Shown piece after piece: positions 8,145 through 24,296 of a stretch of DNA of 64,000 nt (position 1 is the first letter of the stretch; every line of letters starts with the position of its first letter). Location: positions 124,001 to 188,000 of the forward strand of contig JAFRBQ010000019.1 in assembly GCA_017404785.1 (NCBI GenBank), written 5' to 3'. The notes below the pieces were generated by a model. That model was given only the letters and a program-made list of their open reading frames with translations. It did not search any database and was not told the DNA's origin. A program made the position numbers and the translations under genes. The DNA comes from Erysipelotrichaceae bacterium (GTDB lineage Bacteria > Bacillota_I > Bacilli_A > Erysipelotrichales > Erysipelotrichaceae).

Positions 8145-10256
8145 GTGAAAACATTTCTGATAGAAAAAATGAATATTCTGTTGTCGGTACTGCTTGTGGG
8201 CGTATTAGGTGCAAGTGGTGTCGTCGGCTATAACCTTCTTTTAAAGAACAATAATGTTACTGTGCCTGATTTTTTAGGCAAGGATAAGCAGGAAGCGATA
8301 GCCTGGTGCGGTCAGTTAAGCGATTCTGAAGCCTGTGAATTTGTCTATGAGGATACGAGCAATACCGAGAAAGACAAGGTTTTCCAGCAATCTGTTTCCG
8401 CTGGAAACAAGCTTGATGGAAAGATCACATTCCGAATCTCCAATGGTATCGTTACCAAAATCGATGCACCGCTTATCAATGAAAATACCACCAGACAGGA
8501 TATTGAAAACTGGAAAAACGAAAACCATATTGCAACTGTGAATTTTGTTGAAGAAAACAGCGAAACAGTCGAAACAGGCAAGATCATCAGGATCGAACCA
8601 AGTTCCGAAATAAAAAGCGATACGATCGTGACCGTATTTGTCTCCAAAGGCAAAAAGGAAGAAAGCAGCACATCTGAAGGCAAGATCGAAGTCAAGGCCA
8701 ATGCCTACATCAATCTGACTGTAGCGCAGTTTGAAGCCAAGGCTAAGGAACTGGGACTTAAACCTAATCATAGAACTTCGAATGATGGAAGCAGCAGTTC
8801 CGTTACTAAAGGAAATATCGTCTGGCATGGTTCAGGGACGTACGAAAAAGGTGAAACTATCAACTATGGCGTATGTACCGAGGAAAGCAAAAGCATAACC
8901 GTTAAAGAAGGCGCATATGTCGGTAAGAGTGAATCCGAGTTCAAGAGTATCGCTGAAGATCTCAAGCTCAAACCTGTCCATAACAGCGACTGGGATGAAA
9001 AGACAAGCGATTCAACAAAAGTGGGAACCGTATGTGCTCACGGTTATTCAAACAATTACTCTGAAGGTGAAGATTTCAGATATGGTCTTTACAAATCGGA
9101 TTCCTCAAGTTCTTCGAGTATAAAGGTCACTCAGGATCAGTACAAAGGAAAGACCGAGGATGAATTCAGGACTATTGCCAATGATCTGGGTCTTAAGCCA
9201 AATCATGACAGTGGAAGAGATTCTTACAGCTCCTCAATTGCCAAAGGCAGTATCGTTACACACGGTTATGGAACCTATGTAAAGGGCGAAACATTCAATT
9301 ATGGCTTGTCTTTGGGTTCTGAGAGCGGATCTTCCGATGACGAGATAATCGTTAAAGCAGGTCAATACATAGGAAAGAGCGAAGATGATTTCAAGAAGAT
9401 CGCTGCAGATCTTGGTCTTAAACCGAATCACAAGACTACCCTGGATAAATACAGCAGTACTGTAGCAAAAGGAAATATCGTCTGGCATGGTTCAGGAACA
9501 TATGAAAAAGATGAAGCTTTCAATTATGGACTCTCTTTAGGATCTGAAAACGGTGGAACTTCCAACCAGACTATCCAGATCTCTCAGGGACAGTATGTCG
9601 GCAAGAGCGAGACAGATTTCATCAATGCCGCAAAAGCTCTGGGTCTGACTCCTACCCATATCGAAGGCAGAGATGCGTATAGTTCATCTATAGCCAAAGG
9701 AAATATCGTAACTCATGGCTACGGAAGTTACGTCAAGAATGAGGCTTTCAATTACGGCCTGTCTCTAGGTCCTGAACCAGTCGCAGAGAAAGTCAACGTT
9801 GAAAACAGATCCGGCTCTACGGAAGCTGCTTTCAGATCATATATTGAAGGTTTAGGCATGAAACTTGGAACAAGAAGTGAAGCATATTCATCTTCAATAG
9901 CTGAAGGACTTATCATATCCAATGATTCAGGAAGCTATACTAAAGGTTCGGCGATAAACTATTCCGTTTCCTTAGGCAAAGAGCCTGAAACATTGTGCAC
10001 TCTTAATGCTTTCAGCGATCTGGCATCATTATTCCTGGCGACGGATAACTTTGAAGCTGCCAAGAATAATGCGATCTCATATCTTGATAAAGCCGGTTTC
10101 ACCAATTATTCGATCGTTGGTGAGACATCACTTAACGAGGGGGAAGGAGTGTTGGTTTCTGTGACGGTCAATGGTGTTAAGCATATAACCAGAGCCAGTT
10201 ATCCAGCCAGCGCGGCAATCATAGTTACAATCTCAACCGGATATCCTCAAGGATAG
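8145..10256 (+). CDS. Membrane-anchored PASTA-repeat protein without a kinase domain
   Basis: This 703-residue protein has one N-terminal membrane helix (about residues 9-30) and then an outside region made almost wholly of PASTA-like repeats. I count two ordinary PASTA units (about 36-100 and 104-172) and six longer variants of about 73 residues. The variants share a pattern of Y-x-GK-(S/T)-E-x-(D/E)-F, LGLKPNH, YSSS-(I/V)-AKG-x-IV-x-HG and FNYGLSLG. PASTA domains bind muropeptides or the wall and are usually attached to Ser/Thr kinases or PBPs; here no catalytic domain is present. A different cystatin-like tail covers about residues 630-703. It begins four bases after the glucosaminidase gene, suggesting joint action at the wall. 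Confidence 0.85.
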   Translation: MKTFLIEKMNILLSVLLVGVLGASGVVGYNLLLKNNNVTVPDFLGKDKQEAIAWCGQLSDSEACEFVYEDTSNTEKDKVFQQSVSAGNKLDGKITFRISNGIVTKIDAPLINENTTRQDIENWKNENHIATVNFVEENSETVETGKIIRIEPSSEIKSDTIVTVFVSKGKKEESSTSEGKIEVKANAYINLTVAQFEAKAKELGLKPNHRTSNDGSSSSVTKGNIVWHGSGTYEKGETINYGVCTEESKSITVKEGAYVGKSESEFKSIAEDLKLKPVHNSDWDEKTSDSTKVGTVCAHGYSNNYSEGEDFRYGLYKSDSSSSSSIKVTQDQYKGKTEDEFRTIANDLGLKPNHDSGRDSYSSSIAKGSIVTHGYGTYVKGETFNYGLSLGSESGSSDDEIIVKAGQYIGKSEDDFKKIAADLGLKPNHKTTLDKYSSTVAKGNIVWHGSGTYEKDEAFNYGLSLGSENGGTSNQTIQISQGQYVGKSETDFINAAKALGLTPTHIEGRDAYSSSIAKGNIVTHGYGSYVKNEAFNYGLSLGPEPVAEKVNVENRSGSTEAAFRSYIEGLGMKLGTRSEAYSSSIAEGLIISNDSGSYTKGSAINYSVSLGKEPETLCTLNAFSDLASLFLATDNFEAAKNNAISYLDKAGFTNYSIVGETSLNEGEGVLVSVTVNGVKHITRASYPASAAIIVTISTGYPQG
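8808..8836 (+). repeat. Direct repeat copy A inside the PASTA array
   Basis: These 29 bases are identical to 9468-9496, exactly 660 bases (three repeat units) downstream. They encode the KGNIVWHGSG segment of PASTA variants 1 and 4. Other units differ at many silent sites, so this identity points to recent duplication or gene conversion. Confidence 0.8.
9468..9496 (+). repeat. Direct repeat copy B inside the PASTA array
   Basis: This is the second copy of the 29-base identity described at 8808-8836. The flanking bases diverge gradually rather than sharply, as expected for in-frame recombination within a repetitive surface gene. Confidence 0.8.
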
Positions 10257-17227: not shown

Positions 17228-17286
17228 TACTGTTTATCCTTACCTTTATCAGGTTTATCAGCGTATAAATTCATAAAGGTGTTGAT

Positions 17287-17547
17287 ATGAATGAAAAAAG
17301 CAGAACGATAAAAGACGATGATCTATCAGAGATCAGCGGTGGTGTTGATTTCTTTGATCTGAATGACGATCTAAAAGAAAATCTGGCATCGATCGCCGGT
17401 TTGGAATGCCGTCATTGTTGCAGGCCTTTTGAGATCAGCGATATGTTGAGAGTATTTGAAATTTCTTATATTGAATGGATGTTCAGTGTCGATAAGATCG
17501 AATGTCCATATTGCCGTAAGCTGTCTTCTACTGACAGTCTTAAATAA
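17287..17547 (+). CDS. Small protein with double-glycine-leader-like N-terminus and zinc ribbon
   Basis: This 86-residue protein is not one I recognise. Residues 8-20 (IKDDDLSEISGG and the next residue) match the consensus of double-glycine leaders of bacteriocins and related exported peptides: an acidic helix with L-S-x-I followed by GG. After the GG comes an acidic segment and then two cysteine pairs, CRHCC at about 41-45 and CPYC at about 76-79, which would form a zinc ribbon. No peptidase-containing ABC exporter lies nearby. AAAGGTG provides a ribosome site. It could be a substrate for an exporter elsewhere, or an unrelated cytoplasmic zinc protein whose N-terminus matches by chance. Confidence 0.6.
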   Translation: MNEKSRTIKDDDLSEISGGVDFFDLNDDLKENLASIAGLECRHCCRPFEISDMLRVFEISYIEWMFSVDKIECPYCRKLSSTDSLK

Positions 17548-17563
17548 TTTATTGATTTTTCAG

Positions 17564-17597
17564 ATAAAGCCAGCTGTTAGTCGTGCTGGTTTTATTG
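17564..17597 (+). terminator. Probable terminator after the GG-leader-like gene
   Basis: ATAAAGCCAGC pairs with GCTGGTTTTAT across a 10-base loop, with a T-rich 3' arm. It separates the small zinc-ribbon gene from the signalling operon. Confidence 0.75.
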
Positions 17598-17698
17598 TAG
17601 AGACTGAATCTTTCTATCTATCATCTTTTAAATAAGACTTTTAAATTGTTAGGGTATGATTTTTCAGGAAAAAATGTAAAATAAATAATATAGAAAAA

Positions 17699-17715
17699 GG
17701 GAGGACCCGCTTATT
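17699..17715 (+). promoter_or_regulatory. Ribosome-binding site pointing to an AUU start codon
   Basis: GGGAGGA (17699-17705) is a strong Shine-Dalgarno site. Seven bases later an in-frame ATT (17713) begins an open frame that runs into the downstream gene. The first ATG in that frame (17752) is 47 bases from the site and has no ribosome site of its own. Confidence 0.65.
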
Positions 17716-18846
17716 TTTTATACGGTTAGAGGTTTACTTGAATCCCGTGGTATGAGGATTGAAGATACAATTTACAGGATCTGTAGAGATGACATGCTAG
17801 ATTTTAAGATAGCTTCCGGTGATTTTTATGAGATCCCGGATCTGGACAAAGGAACTCTCAGATTCAAGAATGCTGCCGATCTGCTCGGTTTTTATCATCT
17901 GCTGGAGATACTTCCGGATCTGAGGAACATCAATTTCCGACATAAGGAATTCTTTCCATACTATGGCGAAGATCTTGAAGTGATAGCTGAAGCGCTGAAA
18001 AACGACAAGGAAAATGTCGCTGTAGAAGGCGGACCTTGTCTGTTTGGCGAACATGAAGTGGATGTGATCGTTACTTTAGACGATGATTCAAAATATCTGT
18101 TTGATTATTCTACAGGCAAGAAATACAAAGCTCTGGAGAGTGTTGATTATGAATTGAGCAATCTTGATCTTGCACAGTTTGTTGAAGAGAATAAGGATGC
18201 GATCAGGGATATCGCTTTCAAGAATCACAAGAGTGGTCTTACCTATCAGGAGTATCTGCACGTCTTTTTCCCGTTTGCGATAGCTGATGCCCTGAAAACA
18301 GCTCTGGTAATGACTTTACCGGACATTTCCTATCGAAAATATCTGCAGTATATCTGCAAGAGTCTAAGTGAACAGATGGCTCTTAAGGTGATGAATGAAT
18401 TTGATGAGATCCTTTATTACATAACTGATATGTATATTGATCTGATCAATCAGCTGGAAGATAAATTCAAGATCGAAAGATTTGCGCTGGTTCATGGAAG
18501 AAATGAGGAACTGATGAAGGTTTATATTGAGAAAAGAGAACCTTTCATTGAAAGAAACAAAGTCCTCAAGTCATTGACCAGCAATGACGCCAAGCTCGAA
18601 TCGATCAAGGATTATATCTCGATGCCGGCTCTTCCATACTATATCTTCGGTTCTACGCATATTCTTGAAGTAAACAGTATGGATGAGACTGATTCATACC
18701 GCAAATGCCGCAAGGCTCACAAGAGCGTACTGACATTAAGCTGTATTCTGTTCCCTGAACTGCTCAGTTCAGATGGAGAAAATACGATCTATTGCACAAC
18801 GCTTGAACATAAAGACTACAATAATTACAAATCAGAACTGGAATAA
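17713..18846 (+). CDS. Unrecognised protein heading the sensor-MFS operon, likely AUU start
   Basis: I do not recognise this protein (377 residues from ATT 17713, 364 from ATG 17752). It has no signal peptide or clear membrane helix and looks like a mixed alpha/beta cytoplasmic protein rich in acidic and aromatic residues, with a helical second half (about 165-300). The upstream 13 codons read FYTVRGLLESRG after the initiator and are protein-like. They also connect to a well-placed GGGAGGA, which is why I extend the gene. The next gene starts three bases after its stop, so it very likely works with the sensor-MFS fusion. The ATG 17752 start remains the conservative alternative. Confidence 0.7.
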   Translation: MFYTVRGLLESRGMRIEDTIYRICRDDMLDFKIASGDFYEIPDLDKGTLRFKNAADLLGFYHLLEILPDLRNINFRHKEFFPYYGEDLEVIAEALKNDKENVAVEGGPCLFGEHEVDVIVTLDDDSKYLFDYSTGKKYKALESVDYELSNLDLAQFVEENKDAIRDIAFKNHKSGLTYQEYLHVFFPFAIADALKTALVMTLPDISYRKYLQYICKSLSEQMALKVMNEFDEILYYITDMYIDLINQLEDKFKIERFALVHGRNEELMKVYIEKREPFIERNKVLKSLTSNDAKLESIKDYISMPALPYYIFGSTHILEVNSMDETDSYRKCRKAHKSVLTLSCILFPELLSSDGENTIYCTTLEHKDYNNYKSELE

Positions 18847-18848
18847 TT

Positions 18849-21779
18849 ATGAAAGACTACCTTTTATCCGAAAAATTCAAGAAATTTGATATTATCGTCA
18901 TCATCATGACGATACTTTTAGGTTATCTGTCATTCCGTTACCGGGTACCTTATGAAAAGGCTACTTCAAGATATACCGAGATTTCCTTTGGTTATATCTC
19001 AAAGAAGTACAATGACCGTTATTACGTCATAGATGACGGACATACAAGATTGATCTGCTTTGATGAAAATGAAAAGGAGATCTTTGAGATCGTCGATCCG
19101 GTAGTCGTTGGTGAATACGGGCTTTATATCGATGATGTATTTGTGGATGATGAAAGCATCTATCTTTCAGGATCTCTATGGAACGGCATGCTGCTGGATG
19201 GAGAAGCTATCGCCAGATTTGATCTCGATGGCAATTTCATTGAAACGATCGCCTATAACGATTATTACAGCCAGTCTTTGAATGTCAACAAACATCGCCT
19301 TTATGGCATGAAGACTTTTGATGGTGTTCTGTATTATGCAGAATGTATTGATAATCATGTCGTAGTACATCGTTATGATGGCGAAAAAGACAGGACATAT
19401 ATGATCATGTATCCTGATGCCTTCAATGCGGTAAGTGATATCGTCTTCGAGAAGGGTGATATCATCATCATGAACAAGCGAGGCATCATCGAAAGATATG
19501 ATGAAGCAAGAAACAGCAAACTTATCTATGAAACGATCTGGGATGGCGAGAACGATCGCATTCCTTTCAGGATGGATATTTTTGAGGGAAGAGTTTTATT
19601 TACTGATTTGAGAAACAGCGAGGTCGTTGAAGCCGATACAGATAATAAGTCCAGTAAGGTCATCTACAGCGGCTGCGATACCCAAACGGTTACCGTTTCC
19701 GATACGGGGAAAGAACTGCTTCTGACCAATTCTGATGGTCTGCTGGTACTGGGCGATCAGGAAAAGAGTTTTCTGGTTCTGGAAAAGACCAGCAATGACC
19801 TGAGGACTCAATATATCTATCTTTTCTGCAGCGGATTATTTGCTATAACTACTCTTCTTCTGATCTTCAGATTGACACTGATGCTTAGAAAAGTCTCACT
19901 GTCCATGAGCAGCCGTTTTGTTCTGATAATCGTCATCATGGTCTCTGTTGTATGTATCACGATCAGCTACATTCTGATCAATTCCTTCAGGACCAACTAC
20001 TATGACAAGATCAGAGAACAGCTGGAATCAACTGCGATCATAGTGGCTTCCGCCATTGACGAAGATGATCTCAAGAGTATAAATGAAGCAACTGATTTCG
20101 GTTCTCAGCCATATAAGAATATTGTCACTTCAATGGAAAAGGTCTTCCCGCTCGACATTGAGTTCTACAGAATGGCCTATTGCAATATCCTGACCCTTGA
20201 CTCATCAAAAGAAAGCGGCTATGGCGTGGCTTATCTTGACCAGTCGATCGGCGTCTACTTCCCATTGGATGAAGTTGAACTTGATGAAGTTAATCAGGTT
20301 TATAATACCAAGGCTGCAGTCTGGAACGATGCAGTGCTCGATGTTTCCGGTACTTATCTTTCTGTCAAGGTTCCGATAATGAATGATACAAGAGGTGTGA
20401 TCGGTGCCGTAGCTGTCGGTGCTGATACGTTCGTTGTTGAAAACATGATTGCGGATATGCAAAGAAGAGTTCTCTTCTCGATCATCATCATCCTGTTGCT
20501 GATCTGGATCCTTGCGACTGAAGGTATAGCCTTATATACAAACTACGTAGCTTACAAGGAGCACGAGGAAGAATATACAAAGAAGGGCATCATGCCTGCA
20601 CATATGCTAAGACTTCTGGTCTTTGCGGTATTTACGGCATTCAACCTTGTTTCGTCATTCCTGCCGGTTTATATCCTGAAACGCTGTGATATCTTCCCGG
20701 AAGCCAGCAGAGAACTGATCGCGTCATTACCGATGACAGTCAATATCTTTGTTATGGGTATCATGTCTCTGTTCTGTGCAAACGCCGTCAGACGTTTTGG
20801 TATAAAGAAGATCTTCATGTCTGCTACAGCCTTCTCTCTGGCTGGAAATATCATGATGGCGCTCGTACCTGGATATTTCACGATGATCATTGGTCTGTTC
20901 CTGGATGGTATCGGTGTAGGCCTTATTTCCAATGCGATCTATGTAGCTCTTACCTATATTACCGATGAAGATGTCAAACAGAACAGCTTCACTACATATA
21001 ATGCCGGATCACTTTCAGGTATCAACCTCGGTATGATCCTTGGCGGTTTATTGGCTACCGGTATAGGACAGAATTATGTCTTCCTGGCTTCTGCAGCTAT
21101 CTGGCTGGCTCTTCTGGTCTTCGGTTCATACATGGCAAAGAATCTGAGTGATACGACTACTGAGGAAGTTGAAGAATTCACCAACGAAGACAGAGTTGGC
21201 GCAAACAAGTTCATCAGGAACAAGGTCACTTATTCATTCTTTGCCCTGATTCAGAACCCATATATCGTATTCAACAGTTTCGTCTTCTATCTGGTTCCGA
21301 TCTTCTGTGAGAATCTCGGATTCAATGAAACGATCGTATCCGTACTGTTGATGCTGTATTCGCAGATCGCCGTTATTGCCGGTGAAAAACTAACTGATAC
21401 GACCAATAAATTCTTTGGTGACTATACGATCTATATCGCCAATTTCCTGAATGTACTGGCGGTTGCCTATTTCGTGATCGACCAGGAACTTTCAGGTCTT
21501 ATCGGATCTCTGATACTGATCGGTATAAGCGCATCTTTCGGCAAGCCTTCACATCAGACTTACTTCCTTAAACAGCAGATAGTCAAGGACTATGGTGAAG
21601 ACAAAGCCATGGGTATATACAACTTCTCCGAGAATATCGGTGAATCTCTTGGTCCGATCGTCTTTGCCCGATTGATTGGTGCAAGTTTAGGTACATACGG
21701 AATATTCCTTGGTGTCATAACCGCCATGGGAGGTTTGCATTATATTCTCAATAGAAAGGAACTGAGTGTAAATGAATAA
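18849..21779 (+). CDS. Sensor-MFS fusion: extracytoplasmic propeller-like and Cache-type domains joined to an MFS permease
   Basis: This 976-residue protein is a rare fusion. One membrane helix (about residues 13-28) leads to an outside domain (about 30-305) with repeated strands and aspartates like a beta-propeller. Two helices (about 310-335 and 350-373) return through the membrane, followed by a second outside domain (about 375-535) with Cache features, including a late segment V-P-I-M-N-D and G-V-I-G-A-V-A-V-G. A further helix (about 540-562) precedes a 12-helix MFS unit (about 580-965) with FGIKKIFMSATAFSLAGNI as a probable loop motif. The topology is consistent with both sensory parts outside. 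The transported substrate is unknown. It overlaps the phosphatase gene by eight bases. Confidence 0.8.
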   Translation: MKDYLLSEKFKKFDIIVIIMTILLGYLSFRYRVPYEKATSRYTEISFGYISKKYNDRYYVIDDGHTRLICFDENEKEIFEIVDPVVVGEYGLYIDDVFVDDESIYLSGSLWNGMLLDGEAIARFDLDGNFIETIAYNDYYSQSLNVNKHRLYGMKTFDGVLYYAECIDNHVVVHRYDGEKDRTYMIMYPDAFNAVSDIVFEKGDIIIMNKRGIIERYDEARNSKLIYETIWDGENDRIPFRMDIFEGRVLFTDLRNSEVVEADTDNKSSKVIYSGCDTQTVTVSDTGKELLLTNSDGLLVLGDQEKSFLVLEKTSNDLRTQYIYLFCSGLFAITTLLLIFRLTLMLRKVSLSMSSRFVLIIVIMVSVVCITISYILINSFRTNYYDKIREQLESTAIIVASAIDEDDLKSINEATDFGSQPYKNIVTSMEKVFPLDIEFYRMAYCNILTLDSSKESGYGVAYLDQSIGVYFPLDEVELDEVNQVYNTKAAVWNDAVLDVSGTYLSVKVPIMNDTRGVIGAVAVGADTFVVENMIADMQRRVLFSIIIILLLIWILATEGIALYTNYVAYKEHEEEYTKKGIMPAHMLRLLVFAVFTAFNLVSSFLPVYILKRCDIFPEASRELIASLPMTVNIFVMGIMSLFCANAVRRFGIKKIFMSATAFSLAGNIMMALVPGYFTMIIGLFLDGIGVGLISNAIYVALTYITDEDVKQNSFTTYNAGSLSGINLGMILGGLLATGIGQNYVFLASAAIWLALLVFGSYMAKNLSDTTTEEVEEFTNEDRVGANKFIRNKVTYSFFALIQNPYIVFNSFVFYLVPIFCENLGFNETIVSVLLMLYSQIAVIAGEKLTDTTNKFFGDYTIYIANFLNVLAVAYFVIDQELSGLIGSLILIGISASFGKPSHQTYFLKQQIVKDYGEDKAMGIYNFSENIGESLGPIVFARLIGASLGTYGIFLGVITAMGGLHYILNRKELSVNE

Positions 21780-23427
21780 GAAGAAATCTATTGGAAAAGC
21801 GTTGCTTATCGGTGTAGCAGTATTCGCGCTGGAAATGACTCTGGTGCTGGGCGCTATCGGTTTTGCGACATATTACAGAGGCGTCATCAACAGATATCAG
21901 GTCTATCTTAATGACATTTTGAGCCTGACTCTGACAGAGATCGATGCCAACGATCTTGAGAAATGTATTGAAAGCAATAATAAATCTGAATCTTTTGAAA
22001 AGAGTCAGGATTTCCTGAACAGAGTAAAGGAAACCTACGATATTGAATACATCTATATCGTAAAGCCATTAAATACCGATGAAATTGACAACATGATGAA
22101 TGTCATGGCAGGTATAACAGCGAAAGAAGCCAAAGAAGACTTTGAATTCTATTCCGTCAAATTGGGCGAACTTACCGGTGATGGTTATACTAGCGAAGTT
22201 GCCGGAAAATACCTTGAATCAATGGATTCTCATGAGACGACATATTTTTCCAACAAGACGGAATTCGGTTATGACTATACGGGAATAATTCCGATTAGAA
22301 ATTCTACAGGCAAGGCAATTGCCGCTCTTGCTTGCGATGTCTCAATGAATGAGATGACCAAGGTGTTCAATAATTATCTGATCACTCTGCTTATTGCCGG
22401 AGCATTGCTGGCAGCTTTAACGATCGCTATAGCTTACAGGTGGCTGCATAACAGAGTCATTGATCCGATCAAGAGACTGGAAGTATCTTCCGCAAGCTTT
22501 GTCGCTTCAAACAGAAGTACTGATAATCCTGAAGATCTGAAATTTGATGATCCGAATATCCATACCGGCGATGAGATGGAATCACTGTCAAATTCGCTTA
22601 CGGATATGTTTAAAGATATGAAGAACTACATGACAGATCTTGTCTCTGTGACCAAGGAAAAGGAACGTATTGGTTCAGAATTATCTGTTGCGAACAAGAT
22701 CCAGGCCGATATGCTTCCTAAGATCTTCCCAGCCTTCCCGGGCATGACGGAATTTGATCTCTATGCTACGATGGATCCGGCCAAAGAAGTCGGTGGTGAC
22801 TTCTATGACTTCTTCATGCTTGATGATCACACGATCGGTTTAGTTATCGCTGACGTTGCTGGAAAAGGTGTTCCAGCTGCACTGTTCATGGTTATTTCCA
22901 AGACCTTGCTCAAGAACAGAGCTCTGATGGGAGGCAGCCCATCTGAAATAGTTGATTACGTCAACGAACAGCTCAACGAAGGCAACGATGCCGATATGTT
23001 TGTTACGATCTGGTTCGCCAAGTTTGATATCAGAACCGGTAAGGGTATTGCAGTCAACGCTGGTCATGAACACCCGGCTATCTACAGAGCTGAAACCGGT
23101 AAGTATGAACTTGATGTCTACAAACATTCTCCGATCTGCGGTACAATGCCTGGAATGCACTTCCGTGAGCATGAATTTGAACTTAAACCGGGCGATCGCA
23201 TGTTCGTCTATACCGACGGTCTTCCTGAAGCAACAAATGCCGAAAAGGAACTCTTTGGTGCAGACAGAGTGCTTGAAGTCCTCAACAACAATACTGATGT
23301 TTCCGTTCATGAACTGCTTTACAATGTGACCAAGAGTGTTGAAGAATTCGTCGGCGAAGCCGATCAGTTCGATGATCTGACGATGCTGGGATTCTACTAT
23401 AACGGACCAAAAGAAAAGAGCGAATAA
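21772..23427 (+). CDS. Cache-HAMP-PP2C (SpoIIE/RsbU-type) membrane serine phosphatase
   Basis: This 551-residue protein has a helix at about 11-33, an extracytoplasmic Cache-type sensor (about 35-195), a second helix (about 203-224), HAMP (about 225-290) and a PP2C phosphatase domain (about 305-545). Metal-ligand motifs are intact: EVGGDFYDFF, IADVAGKGVPAALFM, AGHEHPAIY and YTDGLPEATN, with D-x-F-D-D-L-T-M near the end. In RsbU/SpoIIE relatives such enzymes dephosphorylate an anti-sigma antagonist. No STAS or anti-sigma kinase gene is in the window, so the target is unknown. Its sensor resembles that of the preceding MFS fusion, suggesting one shared signal. Confidence 0.9.
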   Translation: MNKKKSIGKALLIGVAVFALEMTLVLGAIGFATYYRGVINRYQVYLNDILSLTLTEIDANDLEKCIESNNKSESFEKSQDFLNRVKETYDIEYIYIVKPLNTDEIDNMMNVMAGITAKEAKEDFEFYSVKLGELTGDGYTSEVAGKYLESMDSHETTYFSNKTEFGYDYTGIIPIRNSTGKAIAALACDVSMNEMTKVFNNYLITLLIAGALLAALTIAIAYRWLHNRVIDPIKRLEVSSASFVASNRSTDNPEDLKFDDPNIHTGDEMESLSNSLTDMFKDMKNYMTDLVSVTKEKERIGSELSVANKIQADMLPKIFPAFPGMTEFDLYATMDPAKEVGGDFYDFFMLDDHTIGLVIADVAGKGVPAALFMVISKTLLKNRALMGGSPSEIVDYVNEQLNEGNDADMFVTIWFAKFDIRTGKGIAVNAGHEHPAIYRAETGKYELDVYKHSPICGTMPGMHFREHEFELKPGDRMFVYTDGLPEATNAEKELFGADRVLEVLNNNTDVSVHELLYNVTKSVEEFVGEADQFDDLTMLGFYYNGPKEKSE

Positions 23428-23438
23428 AAAATATAAAT

Positions 23439-24296
23439 ATGAAGAAGAAGCTGACAGGTTATCTGATATCAAAATACAGTTATCCGGGAACGGTATATTC
23501 TTTTAAGCGTCTTCTTGAAGAAGCTGAGAAGCTTGATATCGATCTTCTTGAAATCGGCGTAGCTGACTGTACGATAATAAGCGGCAAGGTCTATTTCAAG
23601 GGCGAACTGCTTCCGGAAAGAGATTTTGCGATCGTAAGATATTATGTTCCGGCCTTTACTGAAGCTCTATGTAAACTGGTCAAAAGACAATATAACGATA
23701 CGGAGATCATTGCCAAATTCCGAAACAAGTATAATCAGGTCTCTTTGATCAAACCGAACTGTTTCAAACAACCTAAGTCAATTCTTGGTTCCGCTTCTAC
23801 TGATTTTGATTTCCTTCAGAAAAAGTTTGGTCTGCCGTTTATTGCCAAAGGTCTGGAGAGCTATGGCGGTCAGCAGATTTTTCTGATCAGAAACGTCTTT
23901 GATTACGATTCATTGAAATTTCATTTCAATGATGCCAAGGAATTCCTCTATCAGCAGTTTATCTCTGAAAGCAGGGGTGAGGATATCAGGATCTTTGCGG
24001 TAAAAGGGGAAACGGTAGCTGCCATGACGAGGATATCAGATGGCGATTTCCGTTCCAATCATTCTCTGGGTGGATCTTCAGCCAAGGTTGAGATCACTGA
24101 GGAATTAAGAAATATTGGAAAGGATATCTACGAACAGACTGGTATAGATTTTGTTGGAATAGAGCTTCTTAAAGGCAAGGATGGACTTTATTTCTGCGAG
24201 ATCAATACGGTTCCGGGATTTGAATCACTTGAGATCACAAACGAAATAAATATTGCCAAAATAATGATGGAAGTGATCAACAAGGATTTTGCCTGA
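23439..24296 (+). CDS. RimK-like ATP-grasp ligase
   Basis: This 285-residue protein belongs to the ATP-grasp group near RimK/LysX-type ligases, which join an amino acid or amine to a carboxylate. Residues 1-100 form the N-terminal alpha/beta domain. The ATP-grasp core (about 110-280) carries LPFIAKGLESYGGQQIF, the phosphate-handling DIRIFAVKGE with the conserved arginine, a NHSLGGSSAK segment, and GIELLKG...FCEINTVPGFES with the metal-binding Glu and Asn. It starts 11 bases after the phosphatase gene and ends with a terminator, so it closes that operon. The substrate is unknown; a peptide-like signal or protein tail is possible but speculative. Confidence 0.85.
   Translation: MKKKLTGYLISKYSYPGTVYSFKRLLEEAEKLDIDLLEIGVADCTIISGKVYFKGELLPERDFAIVRYYVPAFTEALCKLVKRQYNDTEIIAKFRNKYNQVSLIKPNCFKQPKSILGSASTDFDFLQKKFGLPFIAKGLESYGGQQIFLIRNVFDYDSLKFHFNDAKEFLYQQFISESRGEDIRIFAVKGETVAAMTRISDGDFRSNHSLGGSSAKVEITEELRNIGKDIYEQTGIDFVGIELLKGKDGLYFCEINTVPGFESLEITNEINIAKIMMEVINKDFA

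Follow-up and report, generated by a model that had tools for sequence, protein, structure and literature searches.

The system encoded in the window, the whole 64-kb stretch of DNA analysed here, consists of three genes, which specify a putative orphan enzyme, a sensor-MFS fusion and a membrane PP2C phosphatase and together form a horizontally moving cassette of gut bacteria. Several genomes of the window's genus carry the three-gene unit, as do Lachnospiraceae, with differing flanking genes; [Clostridium] aminophilum DSM 10710 is a cultured carrier. In the window the unit is inserted beside a resident ATP-grasp ligase gene. The features are as follows.

~17228..23438, + strand: segment missing from the empty sites L104 and L105 (genes 1-3 and the 86-aa ORF), from comparison with these sites
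17287..17547, + strand: 86-aa ORF with double-glycine leader LSEISGG and CxxCC/CxxC, a passenger (bacteriocin_sig 12.7 bits, cut-off 15.7)
17713..18846, + strand: gene 1, orphan protein, 377 aa, ATT start; predicted class Ic aminoacyl-tRNA-synthetase/cyclodipeptide-synthase (CDPS)-like fold
18028..18048, + strand: GGPCLFG motif of gene 1 (residues 106-112, including Cys109), invariant in the alignment; predicted secondary structure
18849..21779, + strand: gene 2, sensor-MFS fusion, 976 aa, TM - beta-propeller - TM - Cache - TM - 12-TM MFS (MFS_1 profile, model, Foldseek)
18972..19784, + strand: beta-propeller of gene 2, predicted extracytoplasmic, residues 42-312 (model; DUF5128 match in a homologue)
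20055..20426, + strand: predicted Cache sensor region of gene 2, residues 403-526 (sub-threshold sCache_3 matches; model)
20598..21749, + strand: MFS transporter part of gene 2, residues 584-967 (MFS_1 profile; model; antiporter motif-C-like GINLGMILGG)
21772..23427, + strand: gene 3, membrane PP2C/SpoIIE phosphatase, 551 aa, outside domain and HAMP-like linker (SpoIIE 9e-45)
22822..23388, + strand: SpoIIE-type PP2C catalytic domain of gene 3, residues 351-539 (Pfam profile)
23439..24296, + strand: RimK-family ATP-grasp ligase, a resident neighbour outside the system (TIGR00768 score)

All four ORFs of the preliminary description are real and lie on the + strand, and the start of the PP2C gene overlaps the end of the MFS gene by 8 bp. 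The ligase (RimK, 115.2 bits, Pfam cut-off 21; TIGR00768, 151.7 bits, cut-off 143.4) had been counted as a fourth member of the system. In two sister genomes, the ligase gene sits directly between yhaM and rplK, and the genes for the unknown protein, the MFS and the phosphatase are all missing there; in G869 and G856 the ligase occupies the same site and the cassette is lacking, and three genomes of the window's genus (G149, G170 and G181) carry the cassette without the ligase. Because of the two empty sites and the ligase-free cassette genomes, we regard the ligase as a resident neighbour, and the empty sites rule out a four-gene operon. The 86-aa ORF with its GG leader at 17287 was considered as a RiPP precursor of the operon and rejected, as it is unconserved (its only full-length match among 36 genomes of the genus is in its own genome) and the sister locus L006 lacks it. 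A role in anti-phage defence was considered and dropped, PADLOC giving no match at E 0.01, and searches for a plasmid, phage or viral origin gave no match.

The pairing of the sensor-MFS with a membrane PP2C is conserved as previously claimed, the two genes lying near each other at 19 of 24 loci. At all 15 orphan-gene loci (15/15), the sensor-MFS gene is in the same gene cluster as the orphan gene. In an independent test, the MFS profile alone retrieved eight further sensor-MFS loci, and at six of these a SpoIIE PP2C gene lies no more than a few kb away. At L040, L041 and L043, which carry the orphan gene, the stretch examined shows no PP2C, a point against the explanation favoured below. The orphan gene is the exchangeable element: it is replaced by LPG_synthase_C (MprF-type) at six sensor-MFS loci and by a GNAT-like transferase at three. 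The LPG_synthase_C fold is itself GNAT-like.

Gene 1 begins with an ATT codon. The previously proposed start at 17713 is accepted despite this codon, because GGAGG lies 8 bases upstream and the first residue is shared by the homologues, whose start codons are ATG or TTG (M-FYTVRG); ATT and ATA are the start codons in two further relatives. The protein was described as belonging to no known family, and indeed no curated family in Pfam or NCBIfam matched it. Its AlphaFold model (a single model, built from nine sequences; pLDDT 80, pTM 0.83) resembles tryptophanyl/tyrosyl-tRNA synthetases, matching TrpRS 4jfa_A (Z 17.3, rmsd 3.2 over 240 residues), and AlbC 3oqv is among the Foldseek matches (E 0.028). 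On this basis, a class Ic aminoacyl-tRNA-synthetase/CDPS-like fold is predicted. A sequence proof of such kinship was sought and rejected: hhalign of the orphan protein against human TrpRS and four CDPSs gave a signal no better than decoys, a PDB sequence search returned nothing relevant, and the CDPS profile PF16715 did not match. That the synthetase-like fold comes from one AlphaFold model, with no hhalign signal above decoys, counts against the explanation favoured below.

The HIGH and KMSKS motifs are absent from the orphan sequence and from the conserved columns of the homologue alignment. GGPCLFG, invariant in 14 of 14 aligned homologues, closes a predicted strand and is followed by a beta-hairpin at the position of the HIGH helix of synthetases in a by-eye alignment on TyrRS/CDPS. 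A by-eye alignment on AlbC places Cys109 at Ser37 and retains Tyr178 as Tyr301, and the position of Glu182 is occupied by Pro or Leu.

The fusion of gene 2 (MFS_1, 85.3 bits, Pfam cut-off 33.4) is genuine and no sequencing artefact, because 24 loci have it as one uninterrupted frame, about 970-1050 aa long. In the structure model, residues 42-312 are all-beta, with about 24 strands; a homologue (L039) matches the six-bladed propeller DUF5128 at 24.6 bits (cut-off 22.9). We predict a beta-propeller plus Cache arrangement for the outside part. The MFS part is modelled as a 12-helix, DHA1-like exporter fold, with NorA, VMAT2 and SotB among the best Foldseek matches; the motif-C-like glycines are kept at 12 of 13 loci, but without the Pro.

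In gene 3, the SpoIIE domain scores 153.4 bits (Pfam cut-off 25), and the metal-binding motifs GGDFYD, ADVAGKG and QFDDLT are intact. Cache and HAMP matches in the window's proteins stay under the Pfam cut-offs. The outside domains of the transporter and the phosphatase had been described as related; their two Cache regions are only weakly alike (hhalign E 3.6e-4, probability 37%). The transporter and the phosphatase may, as proposed in the preliminary description, form a transceptor system that reads one extracellular ligand.

STAS antagonists are substrates of PPM phosphatases (PMC11418112). The operon contains no anti-sigma or STAS partner, as had been noted; for the genome, this does not hold, since STAS and RsbW-type proteins are encoded elsewhere (a 97-aa STAS protein, a SpoIIE-HATPase fusion and a STAS-APH fusion at C1). 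In relatives, cassette-linked RsbW genes are found at five loci (L023, L039, L085, L086 and L087) and cassette-linked STAS genes at four (L023, L048, L087 and L093). At L023, in a genome of the window's family (G115), genes for NHLP-ABC1, ABC2, STAS (55.6 bits), RsbW (67.8), LPG_synthase_C, sensor-MFS and PP2C stand in a row. The conclusion that the phosphatase must have another target fails, because the genome itself has unlinked STAS and RsbW-type proteins and relatives carry both linked. In the stretches examined, no STAS or RsbW gene lies near the window copy or its eight close relatives, and this speaks against a partner-switching reading; so does the genome's own SpoIIE-HATPase fusion, which could already serve the STAS protein. 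A further point against it is that the presence of the cassette among members of the genus does not follow the distinction between stand-alone and fused HATPase.

Distant copies of the module occur beside weapons: five lie inside contractile-injection (eCIS) clusters (L070, L090, L092, L096 and L098) and four adjoin NHLP bacteriocin exporters (L023, L041, L043 and L082). Near the window's cassette, tblastn across the 64 kb found no eCIS marker or NHLP exporter, which also tells against the explanation favoured below. A word search of the eCIS survey (PMC8213781) and the NHLP paper (PMC2887384) found no mention of sigma, phosphatase or MFS partners.

Starting from what is directly observed for the cassette (gene content, intact phosphatase motifs, empty site, co-localisation and third-gene exchange), we favour, at slightly less than even chances, a reading in which it combines an input branch of partner switching with an exchangeable aminoacyl-transfer-type enzyme whose product is moved or sensed by the MFS protein. 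The MFS protein, through its outside propeller/Cache part, and the PP2C, through its own outside domain, would read a cell-surface signal. The phosphatase would then dephosphorylate a STAS-type antagonist kept phosphorylated by an RsbW-type kinase, and the freed STAS protein would turn on an output; in the window's genome, these partners would act from unlinked genes. The orphan protein would be an aminoacyl-transfer-type enzyme producing or modifying a small compound for the DHA1-like MFS part to move or sense.

The cassette may thus be a switch that tells weapon-bearing cells when to act. A tentative extension, which we think possible but doubtful, is a new family of trigger modules in which a sensor-transporter and a partner-switching phosphatase control eCIS or NHLP systems, with an exchangeable enzyme that includes a new tRNA-synthetase-fold family; the window would hold a mobile, weapon-free version that uses the host's unlinked STAS/RsbW proteins. 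In the literature searched, little is described of how gut Gram-positives switch on their contractile injection systems and NHLP bacteriocins, and a recurrent sensor-transporter, PP2C and RsbW/STAS module beside weapons would offer a testable trigger. The orphan protein would extend the synthetase/CDPS fold group by a new branch that lacks both HIGH and KMSKS, and because MprF-type transferases take its place elsewhere, its chemistry can be put to the test.

Other explanations place the enzyme at the centre. The third enzyme could aminoacylate a lipid or wall component that the MFS protein flips or exports, shielding the cell from its own weapon while the PP2C merely regulates, on the model of MprF, which joins synthase and flippase. 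The replacement of the orphan gene by the MprF catalytic family at six loci and the nine sensor-MFS loci in eCIS or NHLP clusters agree with such envelope remodelling, but the window copy has no adjoining weapon, a plain flippase leaves the large sensor domains of the MFS protein unexplained, and LPG_synthase_C proteins are common and do not all produce lysyl-PG; we regard it as unlikely. Alternatively, the orphan protein could be a tRNA-dependent, CDPS-like enzyme with a Cys nucleophile, its product being exported by the MFS protein under PP2C feedback. Its predicted fold without HIGH/KMSKS, as in CDPSs, the AlbC match, the invariant GGPC at the position of the catalytic Ser (by eye) and the DHA1-like exporter fold would fit; the missing PF16715 and hhalign similarity, the Pro/Leu at the Glu182 position and the lack of tailoring enzymes in the cassette make such a factory quite improbable.

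The two remaining explanations concern the extent of the system. That close relatives move only these three genes, with STAS/RsbW unlinked, would suit a closed circuit in which the target of the PP2C is the orphan protein or the sensor-MFS and STAS proteins are left untouched; related copies, however, share a gene cluster with STAS/RsbW, and the orphan protein has no linked serine kinase, so there is little to recommend it. The four-gene system first proposed, with the ligase making a peptide-like compound handled by the sensor-MFS, can point to ligase starts 11 bp (window) and 5 bp (L006) downstream of the PP2C gene, but G869 and G856 have the ligase without the cassette and G149, G170 and G181 the reverse. 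It is refuted as an ancestral unit and very improbable overall; a recent recruitment of the ligase could be its sole surviving form.

Among known systems, the partner-switching reading is closest to RsbU-RsbV-RsbW and SpoIIE-SpoIIAA-SpoIIAB: the PP2C of the cassette likewise belongs to the SpoIIE family, keeps its metal motifs intact and has a sensor half, and an RsbW-type kinase and a STAS protein are linked in its relatives and present unlinked in the window's genome. The cassette differs from these systems in having no identified cognate sigma factor and, in the window, partners outside the operon, and its input adds a third enzyme and a transporter-like protein whose sensors are a propeller and a Cache domain. 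The eCIS and NHLP export clusters house or adjoin distant module copies, and the window's copy stands beside neither. LPG_synthase_C (PF09924) of MprF takes the orphan gene's place at six loci, adjoining the MFS protein rather than the MprF flippase; it has a different fold from the orphan protein and is not found in the window's cassette. In Bacillus, the pulcherriminic acid clusters join the gene of the CDPS YvmC to an MFS gene. The orphan gene also has an MFS neighbour, as in those clusters (cf. PMC7731078, PMC4992311), and its product, like CDPSs, lacks HIGH and KMSKS; the likeness to the fold of CDPSs (PF16715; AlbC, YvmC) and TrpRS/TyrRS is predicted only. It differs from CDPSs and synthetases in an insertion of ~60 residues after the first strand, and from CDPSs in a Cys in place of the Ser (by eye), in undetectable sequence similarity and in the lack of a PF16715 match.

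CbrA joins an SLC5-like transporter to a histidine kinase, and UhpC-type proteins are MFS proteins acting as sensors. As in these transporter-sensor systems (for CbrA, cf. the review PMC8871633), a transporter fold would serve signalling in gene 2. In contrast to them, the cassette's sensor domains lie outside, and its output partner is a separate PP2C instead of a histidine kinase.

The window locus consists of four consecutive genes:

17713–18846, + strand, unknown (orphan) gene
18849–21779, + strand, sensor-MFS fusion, 976 aa
21772–23427, + strand, membrane PP2C phosphatase, SpoIIE type, 551 aa
23439–24296, + strand, RimK-family ATP-grasp ligase

The start of the orphan gene at 17713, as implied by the preliminary description, is borne out by an ATT codon preceded by GGAGG and by homologues aligned at the same place, where two close relatives have ATT and ATA and others ATG or TTG. 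By analogy with infC, such rare start codons suggest possible translational control. The two relatives are the sister locus L006, with an apparent ATT start at 2808, and L013, with an apparent ATA start at 8427, each behind a good Shine-Dalgarno sequence. In the sensor-MFS, a beta-propeller and a Cache region are predicted outside the membrane, followed by the transporter part, with NorA, VMAT2 and SotB among its best Foldseek matches. The PP2C motifs GGDFYD, ADVAGKG and QFDDLT are all intact. The PP2C reading frame is interrupted in L006 and perhaps also in one MAG.

Within the genus of the window, the orphan gene, sensor-MFS and PP2C occur together in a fixed order in L006 and in genomes G149, G170 and G181; G181 has a second, nearly identical copy on another contig, and the two are scored as one. 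The same unit is found in [Clostridium] aminophilum, a Pseudobutyrivibrio, a Butyrivibrio MAG and a goat-jejunum MAG, and its flanking genes vary; genomes with G handles carry the taxonomy of the group searched. The ligase, present in 4 of 36 genus genomes including the window's own, had been counted as a fourth member, which does not hold: two of these four, genomes G869 and G856, have recX–yhaM–ligase–rplK with yhaM and ligase contiguous, an empty site for the cassette, and the cassette is present but the ligase missing in G149, G170 and G181. Judged from gene order, the cassette is inserted at the yhaM–ligase site, in the window together with an 86-aa ORF, and the system consists of three genes rather than four. 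Junction comparison revealed no long repeats (7 bases at most), and no integrase gene lies between the junctions.

In the 86-aa ORF (17287–17547) the leader is of the double-glycine type (DDDLSEISGG) and precedes a zinc-ribbon-like part, CxxCC...CxxC; the ORF is not conserved within the genus, and a hairpin with a T-rich tail was seen by eye 3' of it. Further small double-glycine-leader ORFs occur in G170 (L016:13331–13618, LENVSGG; L068:1849–2178, LEKVSGG). In the sister genome, a membrane protein absent from the window, Cache-GGDEF by eye, lies 3' of the ligase (L006:9407–10774).

The orphan-protein profile retrieved longer homologues (31–41% identity) from Lachnospiraceae, plus a single one from the Clostridia sample. 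In the sampled genomes from which neighbour counts were drawn, the sensor-MFS is in the same cluster at 15/15 orphan-gene loci and PP2C at 12; an MFS-only profile added eight loci, six with a SpoIIE PP2C nearby, and PP2C is found at 19 of the 24 sensor-MFS loci overall. The pair is genuine and extends beyond the window. At one of the eight (L083/L090, genome G749), a Cache-HAMP protein, a nucleotide cyclase by eye, replaces PP2C. Class III nucleotide cyclase-like proteins, again by eye and one of them with HAMP, lie beside the module in contractile-injection clusters at L090:16391–18106, in the expected PP2C position, and at L070:5932–6894. The open-licence papers searched contained no earlier description of this gene combination.

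Contractile-injection clusters contain or adjoin five distant copies: L070 (Pvc16_N 98 bits, DUF4280 129), L087/L096 (sheath, baseplate J), L084/L092 (sheath, tube), and L083/L090 and L039/L098 (spike, baseplate), paired handles denoting one locus. Four others (L023, L041, L043, L082) adjoin NHLP bacteriocin exporters. No contractile-injection or NHLP markers are present in the 64-kb window. What by eye resembles a conjugation-type secretion cluster adjoins L085/L093. Very large predicted surface proteins (L040, L041, L043) and subtilisin-like proteases (L040, L043) immediately flank the orphan gene on one side or the other.

The earlier view that the phosphatase must have another target, there being no STAS or anti-sigma partner, is not supported: elsewhere the window's genome encodes a STAS protein of 97 aa along with fusions of SpoIIE to HATPase and of STAS to APH, and in relatives the partners are linked. 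At L023, from the window's own family, the order is NHLP-ABC1 (923.7 bits, cut-off 853.3), NHLP-ABC2 (702.4, cut-off 709.4), STAS (55.6), RsbW-type ATPase (67.8), LPG_synthase_C, sensor-MFS, PP2C. L039, L085, L086 and L087 likewise have a linked RsbW-type ATPase, and a linked STAS gene occurs at L048, L087 and L093. STAS antagonists are substrates of PPM phosphatases like this one (PMC11418112); a partner switch brings together a phosphatase, a kinase and a STAS antagonist and has a sigma factor as its target (PMC11619594). Because partners are present or linked and such phosphatases act on STAS antagonists, the PP2C is most economically read as part of a putative partner switch.

In the window's genome, contig C1 carries in a row (L064:4161–8085) STAS, a membrane SpoIIE-HATPase fusion, an HD protein and the STAS-APH fusion, whose APH part is aminoglycoside-phosphotransferase-like. 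The HATPase of G170 and G149 is a separate protein that lacks the SpoIIE part. A MATE transporter–RsbW-type HATPase fusion lies directly upstream of the cassette at L010:4979–6724; HATPase_c_2 matches within 580–640-aa frames are common in the genus.

Most likely, the outside domains of MFS and PP2C would read a surface signal and PP2C would then dephosphorylate a STAS protein; the MFS would move or sense a compound made or modified by the third enzyme. One alternative, the least probable of the three considered here, is a closed circuit in which STAS proteins play no part; it would suit a genome that keeps its STAS genes away from the cassette, and their linkage in relatives speaks against it. 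Six loci lacking the orphan gene carry a member of the MprF catalytic family, LPG_synthase_C, adjoining the sensor-MFS at most of them, and three carry a GNAT-like protein; both would point to acyl or aminoacyl transfer. Self-protection via lipid aminoacylation, with which the LPG_synthase_C proteins would accord, seems unlikely.

Searches of Pfam and NCBIfam placed the orphan protein in no family. Its AlphaFold model (pLDDT 80, pTM 0.83) best matches tryptophanyl-tRNA synthetases (Foldseek E 1e-4; VIA Z 17.3, 240 residues, 3.2 Å), followed by tyrosyl-tRNA synthetases (Z 12–13). A cyclodipeptide synthase is also among the Foldseek matches (E 0.028), as a cyclodipeptide-like factory would predict, a reading we hold somewhat more doubtful than lipid aminoacylation. 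No sequence method supports kinship with the synthetase/cyclodipeptide-synthase fold, so the synthetase-like fold stays a prediction. Because many polar residues are invariant across 14 diverse homologues (GGPCLFG, KxGxTxQEY, PDxSYxKY, DYxxMxALPxY, DExDSxRKC), the protein probably has a working site and is not a dead copy. Although it lacks HIGH and KMSKS, the orphan protein is predicted to resemble the tryptophanyl- and tyrosyl-tRNA synthetases in fold.
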